Assembly (NCBI RefSeq): GCF_001262505.1
Contig: NZ_KQ410731.1
Span: 1 to 64,000 of the forward strand
Length of the DNA stretch: 64,000 bases
Origin: Shinella sp. SUS2
GTDB taxonomy: Bacteria > Pseudomonadota > Alphaproteobacteria > Rhizobiales > Rhizobiaceae
Direction of reading: 5' to 3'
This document shows, piece by piece, positions 12,098 through 62,432 of the stretch. Position numbers and translations under genes: made by a program. The notes beneath the pieces were generated by a model. That model searched no databases. It was given only the letters and a program-made list of their open reading frames with translations, and had not been told where the DNA came from. Every line of letters begins with the position of its first letter. Within the stretch, counting starts at the first letter, position 1.

Positions 12098-14284
12098 TCA
12101 TGGAATTTCGGTGTAGGCGAGGGCGCCGGCTTTGGCCTCGTTCTTTTGTTCGGCCGTCAGCCGCGCGCGTGCGGCGTCCGCGACGGTAAGGCCATCCGGC
12201 GGCTGCCACCACACGTCATGCGTCAGCGTCGACATGTCGTTGTCGAGGAGGATGTAGTCGGCAAACTTCTCCCCATGTTCGCGAAACGCCGCCGGTACGG
12301 TGTAGGCATAGTCGGCCATCTCCTGGACGCGCCTGCCATCCTTTGCCGAAAAGATGGCGGCGCCTGTCTGGCCAACGACGGAATAGAGATCGCCCGCCGG
12401 CGAGAAGGAGGCGTAGAGACCCTTCTCCACCTTTCCGATCTGTTGTCCGGTCTGTGTATCGAACAGGAGGATTTCATAGGATCCGCCGTTGTCGAGTTGC
12501 GTGGCGACCATCCGCGTCCCATCCGCACTGAAGCCGAAGGCTATCGGATAGAGCTCCTTCGAAACCGGAACGACCCCAGAACCGACCAGGCTGTTCTGCA
12601 CGAGCGACCAGTGCCCGAAGACGAGCAGCTTGGGCACATTGGTAGAGGTGTTCGTGCAGACGAACGAAAGGGAGGCGCCGTCGGCACTCAGGACCGCAAA
12701 GCCCCGGGTCAATGCCCAACCCGCCGTATTGGCCAGTCCGTTGCATTTCGTTCCAAGGTCGAACTCAAACCGCTTGGCGCCGCTGTTCACGTCCCAGCCC
12801 TGCACCAGGGCGAGACCCTGTTTGTGGAGCGTTCCGACAAGAACGGCGCCATCCGGGCTGAACACCAGGACGGGGGGATTGAAGCCACCATAGGCCGGGC
12901 CCAGATGGTCTGCGGAAAGCTTGATGGTGGAGATGGTCTTGCCCGTCGCCGCATCGGCGACCTTGGTGATCCCCTTGCCGAGATAGGCGGCAACGCGGGA
13001 TCCGTCCGCCGAGAATTTTACGCTGGGGACCGCGGTTCCCACCTCGCCCAGAATGCCGATCACCGTCTTCGTGCCGGTGTCCCAGATCTCCAGCGTGCCT
13101 TTTCCGACGCCACGATATTCGCGGTCGACGGAGGCGACGACGGCCCGGTCGCCACCCACATTGGCGACCACGACGTGGATGTTGTTCGCGGGAACGGGAA
13201 GGACGATGCTGCTCGAGCGCGTGGCCGCCGTCAGCGCCTGATAGGCAAAGGGAAACTGTTCCGCGGTCCTGTCGTCGATGCTCTGCGGAAGGCCCCGGAA
13301 AGCCTCCACGATCGCGCCCTCGACATCGCCCCTCCCGAGAAGCCGTTTCGATGCTCCCGCGTGGTTTTCGGAGGCCGACTGCGCGTCCTCGAATGTCATC
13401 GTGCCGTTCAGCAGGATTTCGGCGGTGAGCGACGATTTTATCCATGGTGTCTGGGACCAGTCCGTCGCTTCGCCGACGCTTCGGGAGACCTCGCTGAGGG
13501 CGCGTTGGACGGAAAAACCGGGCGTCTTGACGGCCGTGACAAAGGCTGTTGTGAACGGGCTCAGGTCTCCCTCGCCATCCGAGGCCGTCGCGTTGGGCGA
13601 CGTGGAGTAGGCGACGAAAATCCCGCGCGCCTCCTGTCTCGCGCCCGGCGTGTTGGCATCCACCTTTGCCAGCCCCCGCGCGAGGCTGCGGCCGGTTGAT
13701 GCCGACAGGCCCTGGGCGTCCTCGCGCGCGAACGGATTGTTGCGACAGGCGTCAAGGAAAACGAGGATGGAGGCGGACTTCGCCTTCACGCCATCGATGA
13801 TCTCGTCGATATAGACGAAGGCATCGGAAAGGGCGCCGCCGGCCTCGGCATCCGTCGCGACGATGTAGTTGCGGTCATCGATCTGTATGCCGTGTCCGGA
13901 ATAGTAGACCAGGGCGATATCGTCGGGCGACAGGGCGGATTGCATGCGCAACACACAGTCGCGGATGGTCGCACCGCGGGCGTCCAGCGCCACGAAGACG
14001 GTGAAGTTCAGTTTTTGCAGCACATCCGTCACCGCGGCGGCATCCCGGGCCGGATTGCGCAGCGGTGCGATGCCGCCGCCATAGGCCGCGTTACCGATCA
14101 CCAGCGCCAGCCTGCCAACCTTGCCTTCCGGTGCGCTGTCGAGAGGTTGGGAGCCGCCGGCCGCCATCTCCTGACAGGTATCGGCGGGGATCGTCTGCGT
14201 CGTGGTGGATGCGCTGGCGGAGGCGCATGAAAGGCACAGGCCGAGCGCCAGCGTTGCGTACGCGAGCAAAGTTTTCACGAGCAT
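12098..14284 (-). CDS. Caspase-like (peptidase C14) protein with C-terminal WD40-like repeats
   Basis: 728 aa. An N-terminal secretion signal (MLVKTLLAYATLALGLCLSC, cleavage probably after ASASA) precedes a caspase p20-like domain at about residues 57-290. This opens LALVIGNAAYGGGIAPLRNPARDA, carries the catalytic His131 in YYSGHG and the catalytic Cys180 in FLDACRNNPF, and retains a p10-like SPFTTAFVTAV segment. The remaining 400 residues contain repeated segments such as SADGSRVA, SPDGAVLV and SADGTRMV, which suggest a beta-propeller. Bacterial orthocaspases of this type cleave after basic residues. With a signal peptide it should act in the periplasm or outside the cell. It converges on the RTX gene at 8615. 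The target is unknown. Confidence 0.88.
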   Translation of the reverse strand: MLVKTLLAYATLALGLCLSCASASASTTTQTIPADTCQEMAAGGSQPLDSAPEGKVGRLALVIGNAAYGGGIAPLRNPARDAAAVTDVLQKLNFTVFVALDARGATIRDCVLRMQSALSPDDIALVYYSGHGIQIDDRNYIVATDAEAGGALSDAFVYIDEIIDGVKAKSASILVFLDACRNNPFAREDAQGLSASTGRSLARGLAKVDANTPGARQEARGIFVAYSTSPNATASDGEGDLSPFTTAFVTAVKTPGFSVQRALSEVSRSVGEATDWSQTPWIKSSLTAEILLNGTMTFEDAQSASENHAGASKRLLGRGDVEGAIVEAFRGLPQSIDDRTAEQFPFAYQALTAATRSSSIVLPVPANNIHVVVANVGGDRAVVASVDREYRGVGKGTLEIWDTGTKTVIGILGEVGTAVPSVKFSADGSRVAAYLGKGITKVADAATGKTISTIKLSADHLGPAYGGFNPPVLVFSPDGAVLVGTLHKQGLALVQGWDVNSGAKRFEFDLGTKCNGLANTAGWALTRGFAVLSADGASLSFVCTNTSTNVPKLLVFGHWSLVQNSLVGSGVVPVSKELYPIAFGFSADGTRMVATQLDNGGSYEILLFDTQTGQQIGKVEKGLYASFSPAGDLYSVVGQTGAAIFSAKDGRRVQEMADYAYTVPAAFREHGEKFADYILLDNDMSTLTHDVWWQPPDGLTVADAARARLTAEQKNEAKAGALAYTEIP

Positions 14285-17274: not shown

Positions 17275-19518
17275 CTAGAGAATGAAGTCATCTCTGTTGA
17301 GGCTTTTCTGGCCTTCCAGCGTGACCTGGATTCCATTGATCGAGACGACCACGCCTGACGCTGTCGTCTGGATATTGATGTCGTTGAAATCCAGCGGGTT
17401 CGTGCGGGTCGAAAAGGCCGAGAGGTCGATCTTGTCCTGACCGCGGGTGAAATCCATGATGCGGTCCTTGCCGGTCTTCTCCCGGAAGATGAAGATGTCG
17501 TTGCCGGCTCCACCCCAGAGCTCGTCGTTGCCGGGACCGCCATGAATCCGGTCATCGCCGGTGCCGCCATAAATCTGGTCGCTCCCCGCGCCTCCATAGA
17601 GGATGTCGTTGCCGCTGCCGCCACCGAGAAGGTCGTCGCCGGCGCCGCCGCCCAGGGTGTCGTCGTCATCGCCGCCATACAGCTTGTCGTTGCCGCCGCC
17701 GCCCCAGAGCTTGTCCTTGCCGTCGCCGCCGTAGAGCCTGTCGGCGCCGCTATCCTTTCCGCCATAGAGCTTGTCGTCGCCACCACCGCCGAAAAGCGTG
17801 TCGGCGCCCGGGCCGCCGCCGAGAATGTCGTTGCCGCTGCCGCCCTTCAGCAGGTCGTCGTCTTCCCCGCCCCACAATGTATCGTTGCCAGCGCCACCGT
17901 CGAGATGGTCGTCTCCGCCCTTGCCGGAGAGCAGGTCCGCCCAGTTCGTTCCGGTGAACCGGTCGTCGCCATCGCCTCCGATGAGGATCTTGCCCTTGTC
18001 CGTGTCGGGTGTCGTCGGCGTCGGTGTCACGTTGAAGGTGATAACGCGCTCGGTCTGGTCGATATCCCTGCCGTTGTGATCGGTGCCCCCGTCGTCAATG
18101 ACCTTGAAGCCGATCGTCGTCAGGGCGGTGCCGTCCTCGCCCGCCGGGGGCTCCCAGGTCAATTTCCCGGCGGTGATATCTGCAACCGCGATCGTCTGCC
18201 CTGCCGTGATGGCAATGCCGTTCAGAAGGACAGTGCCCTTCGTCGGGAGCGTCGTTATTTTTACACCGGACAGGCTGTTGCCGTTGGTATCGGAAAAGCC
18301 GAAATCGGCGACCTTGAAACTATAGGCCGTGTTTTCCTTCGCCGTGAGGGTTGCATTGGTCCCGGTGGGGGCGTCGTTGACGCCGAAGTAGGTCTTCTGG
18401 ACGATGTTCTGGAATTCTCCAGGCACACCCATTTTGAAACTCTGCCAGGTGACCACCCAGCCGCCACCCGGTAGCGCCGTTACGGACGGGAATTCCTGAT
18501 CGCTCGCCGTTATGTCGTTTACGAGGACCTCGCTTCCGACTGCCGTGCCGCTCGAATTATAGTGGCGTAGGTAAATGTCGTTGGCGCTTTGCCAGGCGAC
18601 CACCCATCCGCCATCGGTCAGGGCGGTGATGGACGCATTTTTCTGATCGCCTGTCGAGGTCGTGTTGACCTGCGTTTCCCCTGACCCCAGGGCGTTGCCG
18701 TCCTTGTCGTATCTTTGCTGGTAGATGCCGGTTCCATTTGTATCGGGTGATTGCCAGGCGACGACCCAGCCGCCGTCCTTCAACCCCGTGACGATGGCAT
18801 TGGCCTGTGCGCCCGCCGTAAGGCTGTTGACAGGCGTTTCCACGCCTTCCTGGGTGCCGTCGGCCTTAAAACGCTGCTGGTAGATGCCGGTTCCGTCGGC
18901 GTCGGGTGACTGCCAGGTAACGATCCACCCGCCGTCCTCCAGCACGGCGACGGAAGGCTTGGTTTGGTTTCCGGCAAGTGTGGTGTGGACACGAACTTGT
19001 GCGAGCGTGGTCGGATCGCCATTTGCATCATACTGTTGCTGGAAGATGCCGTGGCCATTGCCGGCGCCATCGTTCCGAGATGCCCACACGACGACCCAGC
19101 CACCATTGGGCAACGCGGTCACGGTGGGCATTTCCTGTACGCTGCCCACGTCCGTATTGATGACCTCTCCCACGGCGGTCGTCGCAGTGCCGTCTGCATC
19201 GTAGCGCCGCTGGTAGATTTCCGGGCCGCCTGCTTCATCGCCGACCCACGTCACAAGCCAGCCGCCGTCTTTGAGGGCGGTTATCGCAGGTTGATACTGC
19301 GATTCGGCGGTCGTCGTGTTTACCAGCACTTCGACGCCGTCTGGCGTTCCATCCGGTTTGTAGCGTTGTTGGTAGACGCCGTCGTTCGAGCCGTCCTGTC
19401 CCCAGGATTGCCATGTCACCACCCAGCCGCCGTCCTTGAGCATTGCAACGGATGGCTCCAGCTGCTGGCCCGGCAAGTGTGTGTTGACCATGGTTTCGGT
19501 GCCTACCAGGATAGTCAT
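17275..19518 (-). CDS. RTX calcium-binding protein with GGWVVTW propeller repeats
   Basis: 747 aa from the ATG at 19518 (MTILVGTETMVNTHLPGQ), which has AGGGAAGAA upstream; the longer frame is rejected. Seven repeats of about 50 aa carry a GGWVVTWQS-type core plus IYQQRYDxDG (residues 10-390). One cadherin-like domain starting NDAPTGTNATL follows (about 395-500). About ten RTX units (GGDGDDRFTG, GGAGNDTLWGG and similar) cover 520-690, and a C-terminal DRIMDFTRGQDKIDLSAF tail follows. The plan parallels the 8615-11848 protein, with fewer Ig-like repeats and more RTX repeats. A type I-secreted, Ca2+-folded adhesin or matrix protein is likely. No secretion genes are adjacent. Confidence 0.9.
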   Translation of the reverse strand: MTILVGTETMVNTHLPGQQLEPSVAMLKDGGWVVTWQSWGQDGSNDGVYQQRYKPDGTPDGVEVLVNTTTAESQYQPAITALKDGGWLVTWVGDEAGGPEIYQRRYDADGTATTAVGEVINTDVGSVQEMPTVTALPNGGWVVVWASRNDGAGNGHGIFQQQYDANGDPTTLAQVRVHTTLAGNQTKPSVAVLEDGGWIVTWQSPDADGTGIYQQRFKADGTQEGVETPVNSLTAGAQANAIVTGLKDGGWVVAWQSPDTNGTGIYQQRYDKDGNALGSGETQVNTTSTGDQKNASITALTDGGWVVAWQSANDIYLRHYNSSGTAVGSEVLVNDITASDQEFPSVTALPGGGWVVTWQSFKMGVPGEFQNIVQKTYFGVNDAPTGTNATLTAKENTAYSFKVADFGFSDTNGNSLSGVKITTLPTKGTVLLNGIAITAGQTIAVADITAGKLTWEPPAGEDGTALTTIGFKVIDDGGTDHNGRDIDQTERVITFNVTPTPTTPDTDKGKILIGGDGDDRFTGTNWADLLSGKGGDDHLDGGAGNDTLWGGEDDDLLKGGSGNDILGGGPGADTLFGGGGDDKLYGGKDSGADRLYGGDGKDKLWGGGGNDKLYGGDDDDTLGGGAGDDLLGGGSGNDILYGGAGSDQIYGGTGDDRIHGGPGNDELWGGAGNDIFIFREKTGKDRIMDFTRGQDKIDLSAFSTRTNPLDFNDINIQTTASGVVVSINGIQVTLEGQKSLNRDDFIL

Positions 19519-19825
19519 GGCGGTTCTTCCCTGTTTGTGGCGCATCTTGGACGATGGCCATTTTTGGTTGAATTCCCTTAAAAGTAGAGGAGTATGAGGT
19601 TGAGCTCGCGATGGCAAGTGTCGGATGGGTTGTAGCGAAAAGAATTCTCCGGTTTCACGGGGGCGGGAAATGCAGGCCGTGTTTTTTGGCCTCGTGAGGC
19701 GGCTGTCCGCTCGATCAACGGGCGTATCCTGTGCTCCACGCCGCGCCGGGCTATCGGTGCCGCCACGCCTTCAGAAGGATGGCGGCACCCGTGTTCGTTG
19801 CATTGCCAGCCGCGTCCGGCATCCG
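19519..19825. other. Intergenic region upstream of the second RTX gene
   Basis: 307 bp between the RTX start and the end of the next minus-strand gene. Bases 19555-19640 are relatively AT-rich (CCTTAAAAGTAG, AAAAGAATTC) and probably hold the RTX promoter. Nothing else is recognised. Confidence 0.4.
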
Positions 19826-42028: not shown

Positions 42029-42189
42029 GCATCACCTCATACACGACTGTGCGTCTTATCCGCTGCCAAGCTGACGCTGCGCTGAACGCGGTTGCCGGCG
42101 TCGTTCAGGCGGCTGTCAGTTTCGCGGGGCAGGGAGGGCGCGGGATGGCGGCCCGCGTGCTGCCGGAGACGCTTTCGAAAGGACATCCG

Positions 42190-43836
42190 ATGCGCGAAAC
42201 AACCGGCAAGGCCGGCTTCCCCGCCTTCTGGCGGCCGCAACTCGGCAGCATCGCCGTCAGCATCCTGACGGCGCTCTACTTGCTCGCTTTGACCAACCGC
42301 AGCTTCTGGTCGAAAGGCTGGCTCTACCTCGACGGCCGGCCGACCACGTTCTTCTCCATCGCCGTCGGCATCGCCTGCCTCTACATTGCGCTCTGTGTCG
42401 CGGTCTCCGTGAAATATGCGATGAAGCCGATCTTCATCCTGCTCATCCTGGCAAGCGCCGCGGGCGCCTGGTTCATGGATCGGTATGGCGTGATCATCGA
42501 CATGGAGATGATCCGCAATGCGGCCGAGACGAACAGCGCGGAGGCCGGGCACCTCATCACCCCGGGTTTCGTCCTGCACATGCTGGTCTATGGCGTGCTG
42601 CCCTCGGCGCTCCTCATTTGGGTCAAGGTCCGCCACAACACCTTCTTCTGGAAGCTGCGGGCCAATCTTGCGGTCATCCTGCCCGCGCTGGTCATCGCGC
42701 TGGTCGCCGGCCTTTCCCATGCCCGCGTCTATGCCGCCACCGTCCGGTCGCATCACGACTGGTTCGAGACGCTGAACCCCATCGTGCCGCTCGTCACGGC
42801 CGTGCAGTTCGCCGCCGGCCAATCGGCGGATCGCAACGTGGTGGCCGCTCCGCTGGGGACGGATGCCCGCGTCGTCGATGGTCCCTTCACCGAGCGCAAG
42901 CCGCGGCTGATGGTCGTCGTTGCCGGCGAGACGGCTCGTGCCGCCAATTTCTCGCTCGGCGGCTATGAACGTGAGACCAATCCCGAGCTGAAGACGAAGG
43001 ACATCCGCTACTTCGGCGATACGACGAGCTGCGGCACGGCGACCGCGGTCTCGCTGCCCTGCATGTTCTCCGTCTACACCCGCGCCGACTATTCGCACCG
43101 CAAGGGGCTGGAGACCGAGAACCTGCTCGACGTGCTCTCCCGTGCCGGCGTCGATGTCGAATGGTGGGACAACAATACCGGCAGCAAGAAGATCGCCGCG
43201 CGCGTGAAGGAACGTTCGCTGATCGCGGGCGGCAACCCGCGTTATTGTTCGGGCGGCGAGTGCCAGGACCAGGTGCTGCTCGACAATCTCGACGCCTGGA
43301 TCGGCTCGGTGAAGAAGGACACGGTGCTCGTGCTGCATCAGATCGGCAGTCACGGCCCGTCCTATTGGCTGCGGTATCCCGAGGAATACCGCCGCTTCAA
43401 GCCGGATTGCCGCAGCGCCGAGTTTTCCGATTGCACACGCGAGGAGATCGTCAACGCCTATGACAACACCATCGCCTATACCGACCATGTCCTTGCCGGC
43501 GTGATCGACCGGCTGCAGAAGGCGGAGGGCAGCCTCGACGTCTCCATGCTCTACATGTCCGATCACGGCGAATCGCTCGGCGAGCTCGGCCTCTATCTGC
43601 ATGGTGCGCCTTACATGATCGCGCCGGGCGAGCAGACCCATGTGCCCTTCGTGCTCTGGCTCGGCAAGGATGCCAAGGCCGCCTATTCCGAAGCCTGTCT
43701 CGATGCGGAAACGCTGAAGCCGCAATCGCATGACAAGCTCTTCCATACCGTTCTGGGCATGATGCGCGTGGAAACCAAGGTGCGCGACCCCGCGCTCGAC
43801 CTCATGTCATCCTGCCGGCTCGGCGCCGTTTCCTGA
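42190..43836 (+). CDS. eptA: Lipid A phosphoethanolamine transferase (EptA/PmrC family)
   Basis: 548 aa from the ATG at 42190, with AAAGGA 7 bp upstream. Five N-terminal helices (to about residue 180) precede a periplasmic sulfatase-like catalytic domain. Signatures are VVAGETARAANFSLGGYERETNP, the nucleophile Thr283 in SCGTATAVSLPCMFS, the disulphide-rich CRSAEFSDCTREEI, and the zinc-binding DHGESLGE near residue 458. The enzyme adds phosphoethanolamine to lipid A phosphates, lowering the negative charge and polymyxin sensitivity. It is followed by its likely regulators, a response regulator and kinase, in the order of enterobacterial pmrCAB. Confidence 0.93.
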   Translation: MRETTGKAGFPAFWRPQLGSIAVSILTALYLLALTNRSFWSKGWLYLDGRPTTFFSIAVGIACLYIALCVAVSVKYAMKPIFILLILASAAGAWFMDRYGVIIDMEMIRNAAETNSAEAGHLITPGFVLHMLVYGVLPSALLIWVKVRHNTFFWKLRANLAVILPALVIALVAGLSHARVYAATVRSHHDWFETLNPIVPLVTAVQFAAGQSADRNVVAAPLGTDARVVDGPFTERKPRLMVVVAGETARAANFSLGGYERETNPELKTKDIRYFGDTTSCGTATAVSLPCMFSVYTRADYSHRKGLETENLLDVLSRAGVDVEWWDNNTGSKKIAARVKERSLIAGGNPRYCSGGECQDQVLLDNLDAWIGSVKKDTVLVLHQIGSHGPSYWLRYPEEYRRFKPDCRSAEFSDCTREEIVNAYDNTIAYTDHVLAGVIDRLQKAEGSLDVSMLYMSDHGESLGELGLYLHGAPYMIAPGEQTHVPFVLWLGKDAKAAYSEACLDAETLKPQSHDKLFHTVLGMMRVETKVRDPALDLMSSCRLGAVS

Positions 43837-53005: not shown

Positions 53006-53890
53006 TCAGATGCGGTCCGGCCGTTCATAGGCATGTGACCGCCCGGTTTCAAGCAGCGCCTGAAGGGTGGCGATGATGCGCCGGTGCTGGTGGGCGTGGC
53101 GCGTGCGCACGTTGACGGCGGCATAGACGGCCTGCGCGATCGGTTCTGCCCCCGCCACGCGGCTGACCGCGCCGGTGCGCAGCAACCGCTTGGCATCGGC
53201 TTCCGTCACGAAGGCCGAGCCGCCGAGTTTCTGCATCAGCGCGAGGATGGCGGTCGTCTCGCCGCTGGCGATCGGCGCGGTCGAAAGCTCGGGATGGGCC
53301 TGCCGGTGCAGCCGGTCGAAGGCGGGGGAATAGACGGCCTGGATATAGTCTTCAGCCTTCACGTCCTCGATGCGGCTGACCTTGTTGCTCACCATCTCGT
53401 AATGCACCTCGCCGATGCGCTCGTAATGCAGGTCCGGCAGGTAATGCGGCGTGAAGAGGATGGCGAGGTCAAGGTCGCCGGCGCCGAGGTCGCGGTTCAT
53501 CTGGCCGGAATAGTCGACCTCCAGATAGATCGAGGTGGCCGGCAATTCCCTGCGCACCGCCGCCAGCCAGTCGCCGGCATAGTGGGCGGCAAGATCGTGT
53601 TGCAGGCCGATGCGCATGGAGCGCTCATAGGCGCCGGCCGTCTCCACCGCGCGCGTCGCCTCATGCCATTGATGTTGCAAAGCTTTTGCATGATCGAGGA
53701 AGCGCAGGCCGGCGGCCGTCGGCTGTGTGCCGCCCTTGTTCCGCGCGAAGAGTTTTCGCGCGAACATCGCCTCGAGCGCGTTGATGCGGTGCGTCACCGT
53801 CGATTGCGTGATGTTCAGCCGCTCCGCCGTGCGGTTGAAATTGCGGGTTTCCATCAGGTCCAGAAATGTCTCGATCAGGATGATTTGCAT
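53006..53890 (-). CDS. LysR-family transcriptional regulator
   Basis: 294 aa. The N-terminal HTH reads FLDLMETRNFNRTAERLNITQSTVTHRINALEAMFARKLFAR, the C-terminal effector-binding domain follows, and the overall length is typical. The gene is divergent from the demethylation operon at 54019, with a 128-bp promoter region and an inverted repeat between them. In such layouts LysR proteins activate the divergent operon in response to its substrate or intermediate. Confidence 0.94.
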   Translation of the reverse strand: MQIILIETFLDLMETRNFNRTAERLNITQSTVTHRINALEAMFARKLFARNKGGTQPTAAGLRFLDHAKALQHQWHEATRAVETAGAYERSMRIGLQHDLAAHYAGDWLAAVRRELPATSIYLEVDYSGQMNRDLGAGDLDLAILFTPHYLPDLHYERIGEVHYEMVSNKVSRIEDVKAEDYIQAVYSPAFDRLHRQAHPELSTAPIASGETTAILALMQKLGGSAFVTEADAKRLLRTGAVSRVAGAEPIAQAVYAAVNVRTRHAHQHRRIIATLQALLETGRSHAYERPDRI

Positions 53891-53926
53891 GAATGCGCCG
53901 CATTTCCCAAATGTTTTGCGGCAGTC

Positions 53927-53945
53927 TAATCGAAATCATCGATTA
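53927..53945. promoter_or_regulatory. LysR-type operator candidate
   Basis: TAATCG (53927-53932), N7, CGATTA (53940-53945): perfect 6-bp arms, 19 bp in total, in the divergent region. This fits the T-N11-A style of LysR sites. It lies 37 bp from the LysR ATG and 74 bp from the oxidoreductase ATG. Confidence 0.6.
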
Positions 53946-54018
53946 ATAAACCCACTTCATCCGCTTGCCGCCCGGCGCTTTGGTTGCCACAAATCCGGGG
54001 CAAACGAGGGGAACGAGA

Positions 54019-56469
54019 ATGTCCGCACTGCCAAGCCATGCCCGGGTCGTCATCATCGGCGGGGGCGCCGTCGGAGCATCCGCGCTCTATCATCTGGCGA
54101 AGGCCGGCTGGACGGATTGCGTTCTGCTTGAAAAGAACGAGCTGACCGCCGGCTCCACCTGGCACGCCGCCGGCAACGTGCCGACCTTTTCCTCCTCCTG
54201 GTCGATCATGAACATGCAGCGCTACTCCGCTTCGCTCTACCGGGAGCTGGGTGCGCTGGTCGATTACCCCATGAACTACCATGTGACGGGCTCGATCCGC
54301 CTCGGCCATTCGAAGGAGCGTTTGCAGGAGTTCAAGCGCGTCGTCGGCATGGGCCGCTATCAGGGCATGGACCTCGATATCCTCTCGCCCGACGAGATGC
54401 GCGGGAAATACCCTTTCCTCGAAACGCACGATCTTTCCGGCGCGCTCTACGACCCCTATGACGGCGACATCGACCCCGCGCAGTTGACGCAGGCCTTGGC
54501 GAAAGGCGCGCGCGACATGGGTGCGAAAATCTTCCGTTTCTGTCCGGCGACCGGCGCGCGCCGCGAGGGCGACGAATGGGTGATTTCCACACCGCAGGGC
54601 GAGATCCGCTGCGAGAAGGTCGTCAACGCCGCCGGTTATTATGCGCGGGAAGTCGGAAAATGGTTCGGCCGCGATGTGCCGATGATGGTGATGAGCCATC
54701 AATACATGCTGTTCGAGGAAATCCCGGAACTGGCCGCCTGGTCGCGCGAAGCCGGGCACAAGCTGCCGCTGCTGCGCGACGTCGACAGTTCCTATTATCT
54801 GCGTCAGGAAAAGACCGGCATGAACCTCGGCCCCTACGAGCGCAATTGCAAGGCGCATTGGGTGACGCCTGACGATCCGATGCCGGACGATTTTTCCTTC
54901 CAGCTCTTTCCGGACGATCTCGACCGCCTCGAATGGTATCTCAACGACGCCGTCGAGCGCGTGCCGATCCTCGGCACCGCCGGCCTGTCGCGCATGATCA
55001 ACGGTCCGATCCCTTACGCGCCGGATGGCAACCCGCTGCTCGGCCCGATGCCCGGCGTGCCGAACGCCTTTGAGGCCTGCGTCTTCACCTTCGGCATCTG
55101 CCAGGCTGGCGGCGCCGGCAAGGTTCTTGCCGAATGGGTGACGGAAGGCGAGACGGAGTGGGACATGTGGTCCTGCGATCCGCGCCGCTACACCGCCTTT
55201 GCCGCCGACAAGGACTATTGCGTCGCCAAGGGCATGGAAATTTACGGCCACGAATATGCCATGCACTTCCCCAAACACGCCTGGCCGGCCGGGCGAAACC
55301 AAAAGCTCTCGCCGATCCACGACCGTATCGCGGCGCTCGGCGCGCAGTTCAAGCCCTACAACGGCTGGGAGCGCGCCAACTGGTATGCCGGGGACGGTGA
55401 CGACACATCGGAAGCCTCGACCCAGACCTGGAACCGCGAAGGGCCGTGGCGGGCGCGCATCGAGGCGGAATGCCGCGCCGTCACCGAGGCCGCCGGCATC
55501 CTCGACCTTCCCGGCTTCTCGCGCTTCCGCGTGAAGGGCGAGGGCGCGACGGCGTGGCTTTCCTCGCTCATCACCGGCCGCGTGCCGAAACCCGGCCGTA
55601 TCGGCCTTGCCTATTTCTCCGACGACAAGGGCCGCATCGTCACGGAAATGTCCGTCATGATGCTGGCAGAGGACTTTTTCTTCCTCATCACCGCCGCGAC
55701 GGCGCAATGGCACGATTTCGAATGGCTGCAAAAGCACCTGCCAAAGAATCCGGTCTTCACGCTGGAGGATGTCACGGAGACCTTTTCGTGCCAGATTCTC
55801 TCCGGCCCGAACTCCCGCGCCATCCTCGCCGATGTCTGCAAGGCGGACCTCACCATGCCCTGGCTCACCCACCAGCCGGTGGAGATCGCCGGCCGCTGGT
55901 GCCAGCTCGTGCGCGTCTCCTTCGCCGGCGAACTCGGCTGGGAAATCCACACGAAGGTGGAGGACACCGCCGTGATCTTCGACGCCGTCTGGGCGGCGGG
56001 GCAGAAGCATGGGCTAAAACCCTTCGGCATGGAGGCGCTCGACAGCCTGCGCATCGAAAAGGGCTATCGCGCCTGGAAGGGCGATCTTTCGACCGACTAC
56101 ACGATCCTGCAAGGTGGCCTCGACCGCTTCGTCGACTGGACGAAGCCCGCCTTCAAGGGCAAGGCCGCGCTGGAGCGCGAGAAGCTTGAGGGTGTGACGA
56201 AACGCTTCGTGACGCTGACCGTGGACGCCGGCGACTGCGATGCGCCCTACATGTCGACGCTGTGGCACGGCGGCAAGGTGGTCGGCGAGACGACCTCCGG
56301 CAACTGGGGTTATCGCACCGGCAAATCCATCGCGCTCGGCATGCTGAAGGCCGATCTCGCGACACCCGGCACGGAAATCGAGGTGGAAATCTACGGCGAG
56401 CGTTTCAAGGCGGTTGTTCAGCCGGACGGGCCGCTCTTCGACCCCAACAATGAAAGACTGCGCGCATGA
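54019..56469 (+). CDS. FAD-dependent demethylating dehydrogenase with GcvT domain (dimethylglycine/sarcosine dehydrogenase-like), copy 1
   Basis: 816 aa from the ATG at 54019, with GAGGGGAACG upstream. The N-terminus VVIIGGGAVGASALYHLAKAG binds FAD (DAO domain, about residues 8-380) and GSTWHAAGNVPTF is a conserved FAD-binding segment. A middle FAO_M domain and C-terminal GcvT domains follow, including DALRIEKGYRAWKGDLSTDYT-like sequence. Such enzymes oxidise N-methyl groups of dimethylglycine, sarcosine or betaine derivatives, and the GcvT part transfers formaldehyde-level carbon to tetrahydrofolate. It overlaps the next gene by 4 bp. Confidence 0.93.
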   Translation: MSALPSHARVVIIGGGAVGASALYHLAKAGWTDCVLLEKNELTAGSTWHAAGNVPTFSSSWSIMNMQRYSASLYRELGALVDYPMNYHVTGSIRLGHSKERLQEFKRVVGMGRYQGMDLDILSPDEMRGKYPFLETHDLSGALYDPYDGDIDPAQLTQALAKGARDMGAKIFRFCPATGARREGDEWVISTPQGEIRCEKVVNAAGYYAREVGKWFGRDVPMMVMSHQYMLFEEIPELAAWSREAGHKLPLLRDVDSSYYLRQEKTGMNLGPYERNCKAHWVTPDDPMPDDFSFQLFPDDLDRLEWYLNDAVERVPILGTAGLSRMINGPIPYAPDGNPLLGPMPGVPNAFEACVFTFGICQAGGAGKVLAEWVTEGETEWDMWSCDPRRYTAFAADKDYCVAKGMEIYGHEYAMHFPKHAWPAGRNQKLSPIHDRIAALGAQFKPYNGWERANWYAGDGDDTSEASTQTWNREGPWRARIEAECRAVTEAAGILDLPGFSRFRVKGEGATAWLSSLITGRVPKPGRIGLAYFSDDKGRIVTEMSVMMLAEDFFFLITAATAQWHDFEWLQKHLPKNPVFTLEDVTETFSCQILSGPNSRAILADVCKADLTMPWLTHQPVEIAGRWCQLVRVSFAGELGWEIHTKVEDTAVIFDAVWAAGQKHGLKPFGMEALDSLRIEKGYRAWKGDLSTDYTILQGGLDRFVDWTKPAFKGKAALEREKLEGVTKRFVTLTVDAGDCDAPYMSTLWHGGKVVGETTSGNWGYRTGKSIALGMLKADLATPGTEIEVEIYGERFKAVVQPDGPLFDPNNERLRA

Positions 56470-58913
56470 GCAAACCCATTCCTCAGAAGGCGAGAGCCGT
56501 CATCATCGGCGGCGGCGTTTCCGGCTGCTCGGTCGCCTATCACCTCGCCAAACTCGGCTGGACAGATGTGGTGCTGCTGGAGCGCAAGCAGCTCACGTGC
56601 GGCACCACATGGCATGCCGCCGGGCTCATCGGCCAGCTCCGCGCCTCGCAGAACATGACGCGCCTCGCAAAGTATTCCGCCGACCTTTACGTCAAGCTTG
56701 AAGCCGAGACGGGCATCGGCACCGGCATGCGCCAGTGCGGCTCGATGACGGTGGCGCTGACGGAGGAGCGCAAGGAAGAGATTTACCGCCAGGCGTCGCT
56801 CGCCCGCGCCTTCGATATCGACGTGCGCGAAATCACCGTCGACGAGGTGAAGGCGATGTATCCGCATCTCAACACGGCGGATGTGAAGGCCGCCGTGCAT
56901 CTGCCGCTCGACGGTCAGTGCGATCCGGCGAACATCGCGATGGCCTTGGCGAAGGGCGCGCGGCAGAACGGGGCGACGGTCATTGAGGGTGTAAAAGTCA
57001 CCTCCGTCCTCACCAGGGATGGCCGCGTGACGGGCGTCACCTGCGAGCAAAACGGCGAGACCTTCACCATCGAGACGGAAAACGTCGTCAACGCGGCCGG
57101 CATGTGGGGGCGCACGCTTGCCGATATGTCGGGCGTCACCCTGCCGCTGCACGCCTGCGAGCATTTCTACATCGTCACGGAGCCGATCCCGAACCTTCAG
57201 CGCCTGCCGGTGCTGCGCGTGCCGGATGAATGCACGTACTACAAGGAAGATGCCGGCAAGATGCTGATCGGCGCCTTCGAACTGAAGGCAAAGCCATGGG
57301 GCATGGACGGCATCTCGGAAGATTTTTGCTTTGACCAGCTCCCGGAGGATTTCGACCACTTCCAGCCGATCCTCGAAAACGCCATCAACCGCATGCCGAT
57401 GCTGGAGACGGCCGGCATCCACACCTTCTTCAACGGCCCCGAAAGCTTTACGCCCGACGACCGCTACTATCTCGGCGAAGCGCCGCAACTGAAGGGCTAC
57501 TGGGTCGCCGCCGGCTACAATTCCATCGGCATCGTCTCCTCCGGCGGGGCGGGCATGGCGCTTGCCCAGTGGATGAACGACGGCGAAGCGCCTTTCGATC
57601 TCTGGGAGGTGGATATCCGCCGCGCGCAACCCTTCCAGCGCAATCGAGCCTACCTGAAGGACCGCGTCTCCGAGACGCTCGGCCTGCTTTATGCCGACCA
57701 TTTCCCCTACCGCCAGATGGCGACGGCCCGCGGCGTGCGCCGCTCGCCGCTGCATGAGCACCTGAAGGCGCGCGGCGCGGTGTTTGGCGAAGTGGCGGGC
57801 TGGGAGCGCGCCAACTGGTTCGCCAAAGAGGGGCAGGAGCGGGAATACCGCTATAGCTGGAAGCGGCAGAACTGGTTCGAGAACCAGAAGGACGAGCACC
57901 TTGCCGTGCGCAATGGCGTCGGTCTTTTCGACATGACGTCCTTCGGAAAAATCCGCGTCGAGGGCCGCGATGCGCTGGCCTTCCTGCAAAAACTCTGCGC
58001 CAACCAGATGGACGTCGCCCCCGGCAGGATCGTCTATACCCAGATGCTCAACGAACGCGGCGGCATCGAGAGCGACCTGACGGTGACGCGCCTTTCGGAG
58101 ACGGCGTTCTTCCTCGTCGTGCCCGGCGCGACGTTGCAGCGCGATCTCGCGTGGTTGCGAAAGCACCTGAAGGACGAGTTCGTCGTCATCACCGATGTGA
58201 CGGCTGCCGAAAGCGTGCTCTGCATCATGGGGCCGAAGGCGCGCGATCTCATGCGGAAGGTCAGCCCGAACGACTTTTCCAATGCGGCGCATCCCTTCGC
58301 CACGGCGCGGGAGATCGAGATCGGCATGGGTCTCGCCCGCGCACACCGCGTCACCTATGTCGGCGAACTCGGCTGGGAGCTTTACGTCTCCACCGACCAG
58401 ACGGCCCATGTCTTCGAGGCGCTGGAGGCGACGGGGGCGGACGTTGGCCTGAAACTCTGCGGCCTGCACACGCTCGATTCGTGCCGCATCGAAAAGGCGT
58501 TCCGCCATTTCGGCCATGATATCACCGACGAGGACCATGTGCTCGAGGCCGGCCTCGGCTTTGCGGTGCGCACGAAGAAGGGTGATTTCATCGGCCGCGA
58601 CGCGGTGCTGCGCAGGCTGGAGTCCGGCCTTAAGCGCCGCATGGTGCAGTTCAAGCTCACCGATCCCGAGCCGCTGCTCTTCCACAACGAGGCGCTGGTG
58701 CGTGACGGCAAGATCGTCTCGACCATCACCTCGGGCAATTACGGCCACTTCCTCGGCGGCGCGATCGGCATGGGCTATGTGCCCTCGGCCGGCGAGAGCG
58801 AGGCGGATGTGCTCGCCTCGAACTACGAGATCGAAATCGCCGGTGTCCGCGTGAAGGCGGAAGCCTCGCTTCAACCCATGTACGATCCGAAAGCCGAAAG
58901 GGTGCGCGCATGA
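56466..58913 (+). CDS. FAD-dependent demethylating dehydrogenase with GcvT domain, copy 2
   Basis: 815 aa with the same architecture as copy 1: FAD motif AVIIGGGVSGCSVAYHLAKLG, then CGTTWHAAGLIGQLRASQNM, FAO_M and GcvT domains with GLCGLHTLDSCRIEKAFRHFG-like sequence. It is related to but clearly different from copy 1, so the two are paralogues, not a recent duplication. The start overlaps the copy 1 stop (ATGA), and the stop overlaps the start of the next gene by 4 bp. The two may act successively on dimethyl and monomethyl intermediates. Confidence 0.93.
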   Translation: MSKPIPQKARAVIIGGGVSGCSVAYHLAKLGWTDVVLLERKQLTCGTTWHAAGLIGQLRASQNMTRLAKYSADLYVKLEAETGIGTGMRQCGSMTVALTEERKEEIYRQASLARAFDIDVREITVDEVKAMYPHLNTADVKAAVHLPLDGQCDPANIAMALAKGARQNGATVIEGVKVTSVLTRDGRVTGVTCEQNGETFTIETENVVNAAGMWGRTLADMSGVTLPLHACEHFYIVTEPIPNLQRLPVLRVPDECTYYKEDAGKMLIGAFELKAKPWGMDGISEDFCFDQLPEDFDHFQPILENAINRMPMLETAGIHTFFNGPESFTPDDRYYLGEAPQLKGYWVAAGYNSIGIVSSGGAGMALAQWMNDGEAPFDLWEVDIRRAQPFQRNRAYLKDRVSETLGLLYADHFPYRQMATARGVRRSPLHEHLKARGAVFGEVAGWERANWFAKEGQEREYRYSWKRQNWFENQKDEHLAVRNGVGLFDMTSFGKIRVEGRDALAFLQKLCANQMDVAPGRIVYTQMLNERGGIESDLTVTRLSETAFFLVVPGATLQRDLAWLRKHLKDEFVVITDVTAAESVLCIMGPKARDLMRKVSPNDFSNAAHPFATAREIEIGMGLARAHRVTYVGELGWELYVSTDQTAHVFEALEATGADVGLKLCGLHTLDSCRIEKAFRHFGHDITDEDHVLEAGLGFAVRTKKGDFIGRDAVLRRLESGLKRRMVQFKLTDPEPLLFHNEALVRDGKIVSTITSGNYGHFLGGAIGMGYVPSAGESEADVLASNYEIEIAGVRVKAEASLQPMYDPKAERVRA

Positions 58914-59755
58914 AAAACCTTGCCGACCGTCACCAGCGATTTTTCGATCTGCACCAGTCGGGCTGCTTCGTCATCCCCAATCCCTGGGACATGGGCTCCG
59001 CCCGCATGATGGCCGCCTCCGGCGCCGTGGCGCTTGCGACCACCTCCGCCGGCTTCGCCTTCACGCTCGGGCGTCCCGACATGGGCCGCGTGACGCGCGA
59101 GGAAGCGCTGAAGCACGCGGAGGACCTGGTGCGTGCCACGCCGCTGCCGGTCTCCGGTGATTTCGAGAACGGCTTTGCCGATGCGCCCGAGGGCGTCGCC
59201 GAGACGATCCGGCTCGCCGCCGAGGTCGGGCTTTCCGGCTGCTCGATCGAAGACACGCAGATGGTGGACGGCAATCCTGCCTATGCGTTCGATCTCGCCG
59301 TGGACCGTATCCGCGCCGCGGCGGACGCCGCCCGGTCGCTCGGCCGGCCCTTCATCCTCTGCGCCCGGGCCGACGGCGTGATGAACGGCGTCTACGATCT
59401 CGACGAGGCGATCCGGCGCATCCAGGCTTACGAGAAGGCCGGCGCGGACCTCGTCTACGTGCCCGTGCCGCCGGGCGAGGCGGAACTGCGCCGTGTCGTG
59501 CAGTCCGTCTCAAAGCCGGTCAATGCGCTCGCCGCCGGGCCGCTGCGCCAGCTCACCGTGCCGCAGCTCGCCGCTATCGGCGTGCGCCGCATCTCGCTCG
59601 GCTCGATGATCGCCCGCGTCACCCACGCCGCCATCGCCGAGCAGATGGACGCCATCGTCAAGGATGGCAGTTTTGCAAAATTGTCCGCCGCTGCGTCGGG
59701 GGACCTTATCAACAGAATGCTGGCCGCCGGTGCGGGGGAGACGGATCATGAGTGA
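58910..59755 (+). CDS. Isocitrate lyase/PEP mutase superfamily protein
   Basis: 281 aa, (beta/alpha)8-barrel of the PEP mutase/ICL family. Signs are FVIPNPWDMGSARMMAASG, LPVSGDFENGFADAPEG (metal-binding DxE-like segment), SIEDTQ and CARADG near residue 150. The catalytic KKCGH loop of isocitrate and methylisocitrate lyases is not seen, so an oxaloacetate decarboxylase-like or carboxy-phosphonoenolpyruvate-type activity is more probable. Because it is translationally coupled to both flavoproteins and the methyltransferase, it probably handles the carbon skeleton left by demethylation. The substrate is unknown. Confidence 0.88.
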   Translation: MKNLADRHQRFFDLHQSGCFVIPNPWDMGSARMMAASGAVALATTSAGFAFTLGRPDMGRVTREEALKHAEDLVRATPLPVSGDFENGFADAPEGVAETIRLAAEVGLSGCSIEDTQMVDGNPAYAFDLAVDRIRAAADAARSLGRPFILCARADGVMNGVYDLDEAIRRIQAYEKAGADLVYVPVPPGEAELRRVVQSVSKPVNALAAGPLRQLTVPQLAAIGVRRISLGSMIARVTHAAIAEQMDAIVKDGSFAKLSAAASGDLINRMLAAGAGETDHE

Positions 59756-61286
59756 ACAGGCAGTTTTGTCCCGGCGGTCCGGTGGGCGTGCGGCGCGCGT
59801 TGCGATGCGCGCGGCGCCGCTTGCGGAAAATGTCCGGCCGGTGCGACCGGGGCTTCCGGGCGGCCAGTACAAGCCGCTGACGGAGGCCGGCGTGCGCCGC
59901 ATCCACGAGGCGGCGCTGGATGCGCTCGAAAATATCGGTCTCGCCAATGCGCCGAAATCCGGCATCGAGATCATGACGGGCGCGGGCGCCATCCTCGGCG
60001 AGGACGGGCGTTTGCGCTTCCCGCGCGCGCTGGTGGAGGACATGCTGGCCCTCGCCGCGCGCGACATCACGCTCTACGGCCGCGATCCGAAATACGATCT
60101 CGAACTGTCGGGCACCCGCGTCTATTACGGCACGGCGGGCGCGGCGGTGCATATCGTCGATGTGGAGAAGCGCGAATACCGCGAATCGACCGCGAAAGAC
60201 CTCTTCAACGCCGCCCAGCTCGTCCATCACCTCGACAACGTGCATTTCTTCCAGCGGGCGATGGTCTGCCGCGATGTCGCGGACAATTTCCTGATGGACA
60301 TCAACACGCTCTACGGCTGCTGCGCCGGCACCTCCAAGCACGTCGGCACCAGCTTCTCCGATCCCTCCCATGTCGCCGGCTGCTTCGACCTCATCCACAT
60401 GATGGCCGGCGGCGAGGACAAGTGGCGGGCGCGGCCCTTCGTGTCGAATTCCAACTGCTTCGTCGTGCCGCCGATGAAATTCGCGGAAGAGAGCTGCATC
60501 ACCATGGAGGCCTGCATCCGGGCCGGCATGCCGATCCTGTTGCTCTCGGCCGGGCAGGCCGGCGCGACGGCCCCCGCTCCGCTCGCCACCGCCATCGTGC
60601 AGGCGGTCGCCGAATGCCTTGCCGGCGTCGTCTACGTCAATGCCATGGCCCCCGGCCACCCGGCAATCTTCGGCACATGGCCCTTCGTTTCGGACCTGCG
60701 CACCGGCGCGATGTCCGGCGGCTCCGGCGAGCAGGCATTGCTGACGGCCGGCTGCGCGCAGATGCACCAGTTCTACCGGCTCCCCGGCGGCGCGGCGGCG
60801 GGCATTGCCGATTCCAAGCTGCCGGATATGCAGGCGGGCTGGGAACAAGCGATCTCGAATGTCATGGCGGGTCTCTCCGGCCTCAACATGGTCTATGAGG
60901 CCGTCGGCATGCATGCCTCGCTGCTCGGCTTCTGCCTTGAAAGCCTCGTGCTCGGCGACGACCTTTTGGGCCAGGTGCAGCGCTGCGTGCGCGGCATCGA
61001 CGTGACGGAGGATTCCGTCTCGCTGGAGACGATGCGCTCGGTCTGCCTCGAAGGCCCCGGCCATTATCTCGGCGATCCGCAGACGCTGTCGCTGATGCAG
61101 ACGGAGTATATCTACCCCGCCGTCGCCGACCGCACGAGCCCCAAGGAATGGGCCGAGATCGGCCGGCCGGACCTTGTGCAGAAGGCGATCGAGCGCAAGA
61201 ACCGCATTCTCTCGGAGGCCGGCGGCCCGCTCTTCGATTTTGCGACGGACCAGGCGGTGCGGGAGAAGTTCAAGATCTACTTCTGA
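59748..61286 (+). CDS. MttB-family (COG5598) trimethylamine/betaine methyltransferase-like protein, non-pyrrolysine
   Basis: 512 aa from the ATG at 59748, overlapping the previous gene by 8 bp. The family signature begins KPLTEAGVRRIHEAALDALENIG, then YYGTAGAAVHIVD and GMHASLLGFCLESLVLGDDLLGQ. No in-frame TAG is present, so it is a non-pyrrolysine member like glycine-betaine methyltransferase MtgB. Such enzymes move a methyl group from a quaternary amine to a corrinoid protein. No corrinoid (MtbC/MtgC-like) or reactivase gene is visible in the window, so the acceptor must be elsewhere or different. Downstream flavoprotein demethylation would finish the degradation. Confidence 0.9.
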   Translation: MSEQAVLSRRSGGRAARVAMRAAPLAENVRPVRPGLPGGQYKPLTEAGVRRIHEAALDALENIGLANAPKSGIEIMTGAGAILGEDGRLRFPRALVEDMLALAARDITLYGRDPKYDLELSGTRVYYGTAGAAVHIVDVEKREYRESTAKDLFNAAQLVHHLDNVHFFQRAMVCRDVADNFLMDINTLYGCCAGTSKHVGTSFSDPSHVAGCFDLIHMMAGGEDKWRARPFVSNSNCFVVPPMKFAEESCITMEACIRAGMPILLLSAGQAGATAPAPLATAIVQAVAECLAGVVYVNAMAPGHPAIFGTWPFVSDLRTGAMSGGSGEQALLTAGCAQMHQFYRLPGGAAAGIADSKLPDMQAGWEQAISNVMAGLSGLNMVYEAVGMHASLLGFCLESLVLGDDLLGQVQRCVRGIDVTEDSVSLETMRSVCLEGPGHYLGDPQTLSLMQTEYIYPAVADRTSPKEWAEIGRPDLVQKAIERKNRILSEAGGPLFDFATDQAVREKFKIYF

Positions 61287-61317: not shown

Positions 61318-61761
61318 CTAGACTCTGCGATCAAAATGGGTGCGCAGCGAGACGTGCGTCTGCACGGTCGCGATGCCGGGCGTCGTCGCGATCTGGCGGC
61401 GCACGGTGTCGAGCTCGCCGTTCGAGGCGCATTCGACGAGCAGCATCAGGTCCGTCGGTCCGGCGAGCGACCAGCAGGTCACGACGTTCGGAATGCCGGT
61501 GAGATGCGGCACGATATGGTCGCAGTTGCGGCCCTGCTGGAAGCCGACGGCGATCAGCGCCTCGACGCCCGGCCGCTCCCGGTCGACACCGAGTTTCACG
61601 GTATAGCCGGCAATGACGCCCTTCGCCTCCAGCCGCCGGATGCGCTCATGCACCGCGCTTCGGGAAAGCCCCGTGTGGCGCGCAAGCTCCACGAGACTTT
61701 GGCGCGCGTCGGCGCGCAGCGCCGCGAGCAGCAGCCTGTCCTTCTCGTCCAGTTCGTTCAT
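61318..61761 (-). CDS. Lrp/AsnC family transcriptional regulator
   Basis: 147 aa. The HTH LVELARHTGLSRSAVHERIRRLEAKGVIAGY and the RAM domain GIPNVVTCWSLAGPTDLMLLVECAS are typical of Lrp. It is convergent with the methyltransferase gene and divergent from the hydrolase at 61872. A perfect 18-bp palindrome lies 19 bp upstream of its start. It probably regulates itself and the hydrolase. Confidence 0.93.
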   Translation of the reverse strand: MNELDEKDRLLLAALRADARQSLVELARHTGLSRSAVHERIRRLEAKGVIAGYTVKLGVDRERPGVEALIAVGFQQGRNCDHIVPHLTGIPNVVTCWSLAGPTDLMLLVECASNGELDTVRRQIATTPGIATVQTHVSLRTHFDRRV

Positions 61762-61798: not shown

Positions 61799-61871
61799 GC
61801 TCCGGCTCCTTGCTGCGCGAAACCGGACGGAAAAGCAACTATTCGTCGGTCATCGCTTCATGGAGAAACCG

Positions 61872-62432
61872 ATGCCGACCCTACCCGACAACGCCGTCCT
61901 GATCCCGATCGACATGCAGCAGGCTTTCGACGCCGCGCCCTGGCCGCGGCGCTGGAACGAGAAGCTGGACGACAACGGCCTTGCGCTCCTCGCCGCCTGG
62001 CGGGCGGCCGGGCGGCCGATCATCCATGTGCGCCACGACAGCGTGGAGCCGGGCTCCACGCTGCGCCCGGAGGCGCCGGGCAACGCGCATCGCCCCGGCT
62101 TTGCGCCGCAGGCGGGCGAGCCGCTGGTGACGAAGAGCGTCAACGCCGCCTTCATCGGCACGGATCTCGACTTGCGCCTGCGCCGGCTCGGCGCGGAGAC
62201 GGTCGTGCTGTTCGGCGTTTCCACGGATATGTGCGTATCGACCAGCGTGCGCGTCGGAGCGAACATGGGCTACCGGGTGATCCTCGTCGAGGATGCCTGC
62301 GACTGCTTCGACCTGCCGGACGGCGAGGGCGGCACGATCGCCGCACGCGACGTGCACCGCGCCCATGTCGCGACGCTGCGCCATGAATTTGCGACGGTGC
62401 TCAGTACGGCCGATGTCGTCGCCGCGCTCTGA
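61872..62432 (+). CDS. Cysteine hydrolase, isochorismatase family
   Basis: 186 aa from the ATG at 61872, with GGAGAAA before it; the ATG at 61860 is less likely. The catalytic triad Asp14 (LIPIDMQQ), Lys88 (VTKSVNAAF) and Cys121 (VSTDMCVST) is complete. The family includes nicotinamidase, isochorismatase, N-carbamoylsarcosine amidase and ureidoacrylate hydrolases. The nearby dimethylglycine-type operon makes an N-carbamoyl-sarcosine-like or amide substrate plausible, but this is inference. It is divergent from the Lrp regulator. Confidence 0.9.
   Translation: MPTLPDNAVLIPIDMQQAFDAAPWPRRWNEKLDDNGLALLAAWRAAGRPIIHVRHDSVEPGSTLRPEAPGNAHRPGFAPQAGEPLVTKSVNAAFIGTDLDLRLRRLGAETVVLFGVSTDMCVSTSVRVGANMGYRVILVEDACDCFDLPDGEGGTIAARDVHRAHVATLRHEFATVLSTADVVAAL

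Follow-up and report, generated by a model that had tools for sequence, protein, structure and literature searches.

A LysR-linked operon of Shinella sp. SUS2 probably demethylates a quaternary amine by borrowing a corrinoid core encoded elsewhere in the genome

How can a methyltransferase of the MttB superfamily work in an operon that encodes neither a corrinoid protein nor its reductive activator? This question is raised by a locus of Shinella sp. SUS2 within the 64,000-nucleotide stretch of DNA analysed here (the window), which comprises positions 1 to 64,000 of contig NZ_KQ410731.1 (C9) in a genome of 7.0 Mb and 109 contigs. We propose, with somewhat more confidence than doubt, that it is a LysR-controlled quaternary-amine demethylation operon and represents a substrate module borrowing a shared corrinoid core encoded elsewhere in the genome, with glycine betaine as the most likely substrate. 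The proposal is built on the observed genes, their order, an operator candidate, a corrinoid core present in trans and genome co-occurrence. The features of the locus are listed below, where 'type II' is a name coined in this analysis for the branch to which the window MttB belongs.

53006-53890, (-): divergent LysR-family regulator, 294 aa (PF00126 and PF03466)
53927-53945, no strand: candidate LysR operator, inverted repeat TAATCGA-N5-TCGATTA (pattern scan and intergenic alignment)
54016-56469, (+): FOX1, dimethylglycine dehydrogenase (DMGDH)-like flavoprotein with GcvT-type folate domains, 817 aa (Pfam and PDB relatives)
56466-58913, (+): FOX2, second flavoprotein with folate domains, resembling DMGDH and dimethylglycine oxidase (DMGO), 815 aa (Pfam and PDB relatives)
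58910-59755, (+): protein of the phosphoenolpyruvate (PEP)-mutase/isocitrate lyase fold without the KKCGH lyase loop, apparently an optional accessory (PF13714)
59748-61286, (+): MttB-superfamily methyltransferase, pyrrolysine-free, type II branch, 512 aa (PF06253)

The regulator gene is separated from FOX1 by a 125 bp gap, and the four genes that follow overlap successively by 4, 4 and 8 bp. To follow this arrangement in other organisms we used a sample of 120 loci, 80 with a named organism (the best 80 listed) and 40 further ones, which is partly redundant (L058/L072 and L059/L073 are duplicates) and in which 16 loci are under 12 kb. At the thresholds chosen here, the order FOX1-FOX2-MttB and the strand were identical in all 69 loci holding all three genes and, given this conserved order, the operon arrangement is more than chance. 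LysR was detected in 70 of the 120 loci, together with FOX1 or MttB. The inverted repeat TAATCGAAATCATCGATTA in the window (53927-53945) belongs to a 23-nt operator pattern which, with up to two mismatches allowed, was matched once in the window and never in 100 shuffles, and its core is conserved across 20 aligned intergenic rows, the window counted. Of the 70 LysR loci, 42 have this core, TAATC-N8-CGAT-N-AAT, no more than 400 nt from LysR; the remaining 28 are mostly from Rhodobacteraceae or Rhodobacterales, and one of them (L139) has the core farther off. In three Yoonia loci (L097, L107 and L130) and one of Rhodobacteraceae (L112) the site directly precedes MttB, with no FOX gene listed beside it. 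TAATCGA-N5-TCGATTA is thus probably the LysR operator. The domain assignments of the operon products agree in Pfam and NCBIfam. Together, these data bear out a preliminary description of the locus, made from the sequence alone, as a compact four-gene unit under a divergent LysR regulator that encodes two DMGDH-GcvT flavoproteins, a PEP-mutase-fold protein and a non-pyrrolysine MttB, all matched by Pfam; the conserved order and the operator candidate likewise support its view of quaternary, then tertiary amine demethylation as one regulated unit.

Other arrangements were also encountered. In L038-L041 and L051 the MttB orthologue adjoins a regulator-like gene of about 497-523 aa in place of LysR and the FOX genes, and in L038, the only locus for which the domains were established, its product is a MocR-type protein with GntR and aminotransferase domains. 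In L133, L139, L150 and L094 the MttB cluster ends with a choline-dehydrogenase-like GMC gene and, after it, a gene that groups with the hydantoinase/oxoprolinase of L133.

In both flavoproteins the DAO, FAO_M, GCV_T and GCV_T_C domains all scored above the Pfam cut-off. The closest solved structures of FOX1 are dimethylglycine dehydrogenases (575 bits), and FOX2 matched dimethylglycine dehydrogenase at 449 bits and dimethylglycine oxidase at 395 bits. As read by eye from the alignments, both proteins keep the TWHAAG motif and the aligned His and Tyr, which we take to be the flavin-linking His and the catalytic His/Tyr of DMGO, and at the position of the folate-domain Asp, FOX2 has Asp and FOX1, like DMGDH, has Glu. 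Seven PF16350 flavoproteins are encoded in the genome, so FOX1 and FOX2 are not its sole such pair.

The first enzyme is more unusual in its affinities. The window MttB matched PF06253 with 352 bits (cut-off 25) over residues 11-507 and PDB entry 2qne with E=7e-52. Its score against the pyrrolysine MttB model TIGR02369 was 332 bits, below the cut-off of 525, its open reading frame (59748-61286) contains no in-frame stop, and Ile354 (numbered from 59745) stands where Methanosarcina MttB has its pyrrolysine, as expected from the earlier assignment as pyrrolysine-free. It is one of four MttB proteins in the genome, the others being on contigs C3, C4 and C7, and is 25-27% identical to these three paralogues and 28% identical to both Desulfitobacterium hafniense MtgB (2qne) and Methanosarcina barkeri MttB. 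The C3 paralogue, by comparison, is 44% identical to D. hafniense MtgB and 91% identical to 4yyc, presumably a protein of S. meliloti. In a 49-row tree (quick method, very long branch of M. barkeri MttB, nine near-identical genus rows left out), D. hafniense MtgB, the C3, C4 and C7 paralogues, 4yyc and two further distant rows fell on one side and M. barkeri MttB with all type II rows, window included, on the other (Shimodaira-Hasegawa-like approximate likelihood-ratio test, SH-aLRT, 100), so that the window MttB did not group with D. hafniense MtgB.

The same division was seen at the active site in an alignment of 58 rows (7 type I, 50 type II and M. barkeri MttB; the nine near-identical genus rows included, PDB rows as aligned segments only). 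The place of M. barkeri Gly110 is occupied by Gly in 50/50 type II and 0/7 type I rows, and that of Tyr364 by Tyr in 49/50 and 0/7, respectively, the lone type II exception being Thr in a Ruegeria pomeroyi megaplasmid protein (L153). The counterparts in the window MttB are Gly132 and Tyr384, and the pyrrolysine place is Ile in 26 and Met in 24 type II rows. According to the accessible text of PMC9842639, Gly110 and Tyr364 serve pyrrolysine in the trimethylamine MttB. An AlphaFold2 model from a 9-sequence alignment had a mean predicted local distance difference test (pLDDT) score of 41.5 and was not used. From these residues and the position in the tree one might suppose, although we think it rather unlikely, that type II is a functionally distinct MttB class with methyl-donor activation unlike that of MtgB, possibly acting on a protonated tertiary or small quaternary amine; such a class would allow aerobic bacteria to demethylate amines by way of a corrinoid, with need of neither pyrrolysine nor oxygen. 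The L153 locus (339974-350270 of the megaplasmid) encodes a 45% MttB relative with LysR, a class III aminotransferase, two flavin adenine dinucleotide (FAD) oxidoreductases and a thiamine-pyrophosphate enzyme, and looks like a sister module tuned to another N-methylated amine.

Where, then, are the corrinoid partners? The preliminary description had reported no corrinoid protein or activator in the window; this holds, but both are encoded elsewhere in the genome. Matches to PF02607 and to the reductive activator family RACo (PF14574) were absent from the window and, in its own genome, were found only on contigs C3 and C13. PF02607 was matched twice, in a 1286-aa frame of MetH size and in a 299-aa frame, and RACo once; a stretch of about 8 kb on C3 holds both the stand-alone corrinoid protein and RACo. 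A corrinoid protein and a reductive activator, the pair expected with an MttB-superfamily enzyme, are thus present in the same genome, and a genome search for MtgC- and RamA-like genes, the check suggested at the outset, was positive at C3. The C3 cluster also holds another MttB, DUF1638, a formyltransferase-like gene, parts of MetF and a pterin-binding methyltransferase resembling the folate methyltransferase MtgD. Among the NCBIfam models applied to C3, MeTr was passed (398 vs. 259 bits), whereas MtgC (212 vs. 370 bits) and AcsV (387 vs. 800 bits) remained below cut-off, and for this reason the MtgC- and RamA-like proteins are regarded as homologues and not as certified equivalogs. The gene set on C3 corresponds to the mtgBCD, metF2, ramA and DUF1638 genes presented in the accessible parts of PMC12478193.

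The distribution of the window-type MttB was compared with that of this core. Among 101 genomes of relatives, own genome included, window-type MttB (E<=1e-50) occurred in 33 and RACo in 65, and RACo was found in 33/33 genomes with window-type MttB vs. 32/68 without it (Fisher 8e-9); all 33 also have PF02607 in a frame of 232-434 aa, among the matches listed. In a class-wide sample of 289 genomes, window-type MttB (E<=1e-150) was present in 32 genomes from 17 families and RACo in 70, with RACo in 32/32 vs. 38/257 genomes (Fisher 2e-23). Since these tests treat genomes as independent despite their kinship, both P values are only descriptive. A class-sample search with the C3 paralogue as query (type I, E<=1e-75) returned 64 genomes, including all 32 with window-type MttB; 63 of the 64 have RACo, and 7 RACo-carrying genomes were without type I at this threshold. 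Type II therefore never occurred without RACo in either sample nor without type I in the class sample, while type I also occurs alone, an asymmetry which suggests that type II joined an established Mtg system as a substrate module.

The idea that the window MttB has no corrinoid partner was rejected in view of the corrinoid protein and RACo on C3 and the strict RACo co-occurrence in two genome samples. It could still be argued that the enzyme uses no corrinoid and has another role, with the flavoproteins performing all tertiary and secondary amine demethylation. The lack of a corrinoid protein and activator in both window and operon, and an identity of only 25-28% to the compared characterised MttB proteins and its own paralogues, would fit such an arrangement, but the strict co-occurrence and the retention of the superfamily-wide invariant residues in the window MttB speak against it, as does the fact that Eubacterium limosum likewise encodes methyltransferase and corrinoid protein apart (accessible text of PMC8604678). 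We consider it very improbable.

Keeping the borrowed corrinoid core as the favoured explanation, the pathway can be outlined as follows. In the first step one methyl group of the quaternary amine, glycine betaine in the most likely case, would be transferred by MttB to Co(I) of the C3 corrinoid protein, from which the MtgD-like protein would hand it to tetrahydrofolate; MetF would oxidise the resulting methyl-tetrahydrofolate, and the RACo protein would re-reduce stray Co(II). In the second and third steps, as judged from their family, FOX1 and FOX2 would oxidatively take off the remaining two methyl groups onto tetrahydrofolate, leading from dimethylglycine through sarcosine to glycine.

Is glycine betaine indeed the substrate? 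Neighbouring genes were scanned within about 10 kb of MttB, and the choline and carnitine gene counts stand without a random-window background. Choline-sulfatase was found beside 3/120 loci (L034, L036 and L109), carnitine dehydrogenase in 2/120 (L089 and L109), and homocysteine S-methyltransferase in 8/120, in three of them (L087, L090 and L091) between FOX1 and FOX2. ChoX, ChoW and a BetB-like gene occur in L036, and L065 has a ChoW match at 40%. Curated cut-offs were passed by the choline-sulfatases of L036 and L109, by ChoX and ChoW of L036 (NCBIfam) and by the carnitine 3-dehydrogenase of L089; in L036 choline-sulfatase, ChoX and ChoW stand beside MttB-FOX2-FOX1. Furthermore, in L065 and L154 more distant MttB relatives (43-44%) have genes for glycine betaine transporters as neighbours. 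A Rieske oxygenase lies near MttB in 6/120 loci (L063, L075, L077, L083, L084 and L085); it scored 267 bits against the glycine betaine monooxygenase model (cut-off 670). In L063 (genome G006) the Rieske gene stands where FOX2 and the PEP-mutase gene would otherwise be, which suggests an oxygen-dependent alternative for the first demethylation. The choline, carnitine, homocysteine-methyltransferase and Rieske neighbours in a minority of orthologues favour glycine betaine, as choline-sulfatase, choline transport and carnitine dehydrogenase feed it, but do not prove it.

Several observations weigh against this choice of substrate. Most of the 120 loci have no betaine gene beside them. In the Shinella-type loci L052-L063 neither choline or carnitine genes nor genes for a homocysteine methyltransferase or a glycine betaine transporter were found, and only L063 has a Rieske gene. 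The Rieske neighbours are closest in the PDB to 3n0q, 4qup and 3vca, the latter two of which we take to be stachydrine demethylases, and so suit proline betaine too. An aldehyde dehydrogenase is near 35/80 and a beta-hydroxyacid dehydrogenase near 52/80 of the best 80 loci listed; many Rhodobacteraceae loci have both, and the second is not explained by glycine betaine. FOX2 is missing from two Shinella loci, that of S. pollutisoli (L058/L072) and L063. Finally, the MtgB-like proteins of the genome are the C3 and C4 paralogues (44%, vs. 28% for the window MttB) and, since the MtgB-like type I is present in each of the 32 class-sample genomes with window-type MttB, it may already take care of glycine betaine.

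The last point, together with the Rieske relatives, the two dehydrogenases and the loci without FOX2, would be consistent with the same corrinoid-dependent mechanism acting on another betaine (proline betaine, a hydroxylated betaine or carnitine itself) while type I handles glycine betaine. We regard this as a serious possibility, albeit clearly short of even. The choline-sulfatase, choline transport and carnitine-dehydrogenase neighbours argue the other way, and two flavoproteins suit a three-methyl substrate. Within the likely corrinoid mechanism, we therefore rate glycine betaine as substrate somewhat better than even. The earlier suggestion of an unusual betaine was not upheld, as some orthologue neighbourhoods point to glycine betaine derived from choline or carnitine.

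The third gene of the operon remains to be placed in this scheme. Its product matched PF13714 (PEP_mutase) with 242 bits, and its nearest solved relative is 4lsb (219 bits). The prpB model gave 82 bits against a cut-off of 354, which does not identify it as an isocitrate/methylisocitrate lyase, and K[KR]CGH was found in 0/26 aligned sequences (the window protein, 23 locus matches and two PDB relatives), consistent with the initial report that the KKCGH loop, which we take to be the catalytic loop of these lyases, is lacking. The conserved acidic residues of the fold are kept in the alignment. An orthologue was present in 23/120 loci, in 20 of these 23 between FOX2 and MttB, and was not found in 97/120 (16 of the 120 being under 12 kb), including Sinorhizobium/Ensifer L076-L084. 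The gene, called unusual company in the initial report, recurs, but most of the 120 loci appear to do without it. Its usual position and intact acidic residues would agree with a scenario in which the enzyme is the core, the operon degrades an unusual carbon skeleton and demethylation is only preparatory; with the gene not found in 97 loci, we give this scenario hardly any credence, and for the same reason the gene would appear to be an optional accessory that is hardly part of the core chemistry.

Downstream of MttB the window encodes an AsnC/Lrp regulator (61318-61761) and an isochorismatase-family hydrolase (61860-62432). Such genes adjoin MttB in many Shinella and Sinorhizobium/Ensifer loci and may be a functional part of the locus or mere co-travellers. 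Elsewhere in the window are a 728-aa protein with a caspase (Peptidase_C14) domain (12098-14284), two large proteins with RTX calcium-binding repeats (8585-11848, additionally with Ig/cadherin-like domains, and 17275-19617) and a phosphoethanolamine transferase of the EptA/EptB family (42148-43836).

Alphaproteobacteria carry many MttB genes without pyrrolysine, and a substrate is known for few of them. Two genomes of one genus gave 12 (G579) and 14 matches (G634, 75% complete, some matches being fragments), a large set for alphaproteobacteria. For type II, one widespread branch, the operon offers a testable setting, as it comes with enzymes for the later steps, a regulator and its candidate operator, and expected corrinoid partners in trans. 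The nearest named orthologues of the window MttB are from Shinella (97-98% identity), and others, 87-91% identical, occur in Sinorhizobium/Ensifer, one of them on pSymB of S. meliloti Ak57; because of these the operon may be relevant to how S. meliloti uses glycine betaine, a capacity that the accessible text of PMC12478193 ascribes to the mtgBCD cluster. The type II branch with its Gly/Tyr signature, its two-flavoprotein operon with operator candidate and its restriction, among the sampled genomes, to carriers of the Mtg core were not met in the literature searched, which included few subscription journals and makes this a weak absence; within the same literature, text on R. pomeroyi SPO2108/SPO2134 was found only in the accessible parts of PMC12478193.

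How does the operon compare with known systems? A homarine operon was considered as a parallel and dropped. Both FOX proteins match dimethylglycine dehydrogenase/oxidase over nearly their full length and have TWHAAG in common with DMGDH, but here two distinct paralogues, with functions assigned by sequence, share one operon. M. barkeri MttB belongs to the same superfamily and has the Gly110/Tyr364 counterparts (accessible text of PMC9842639), yet it carries pyrrolysine where the window MttB, 28% identical, has Ile354. The MtgB-MtgC-MtgD system for glycine betaine demethylation in R. pomeroyi and Phaeobacter shares the MttB superfamily and has MtgC-, MtgD-, MetF-, DUF1638- and RamA-like counterparts on C3; the window MttB, in contrast, forms a separate branch, lies in its own LysR operon and is on a contig other than that of mtgC. 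The accessible account of that system (PMC12478193) further describes up to seven pfam06253 reading frames in aerobic marine bacteria, for which it suggests a shared-core logic, and genes for dimethylglycine and sarcosine demethylation often located near mtgBCD. In E. limosum the separately encoded MtpB, MtcB and MtyB share MtqC-MtqA-RamQ, so that several substrate-specific MttB homologues feed one corrinoid protein and one activator (accessible text of PMC8604678); this organism, however, is an acetogen, whereas in the window operon the flavoprotein follow-up steps sit beside MttB. On the basis of the E. limosum precedent and the proposal in PMC12478193, as far as their accessible texts go, we view the window operon as an instance of this known scheme: it is a real and conserved operon, a substrate module with a distinct first enzyme.

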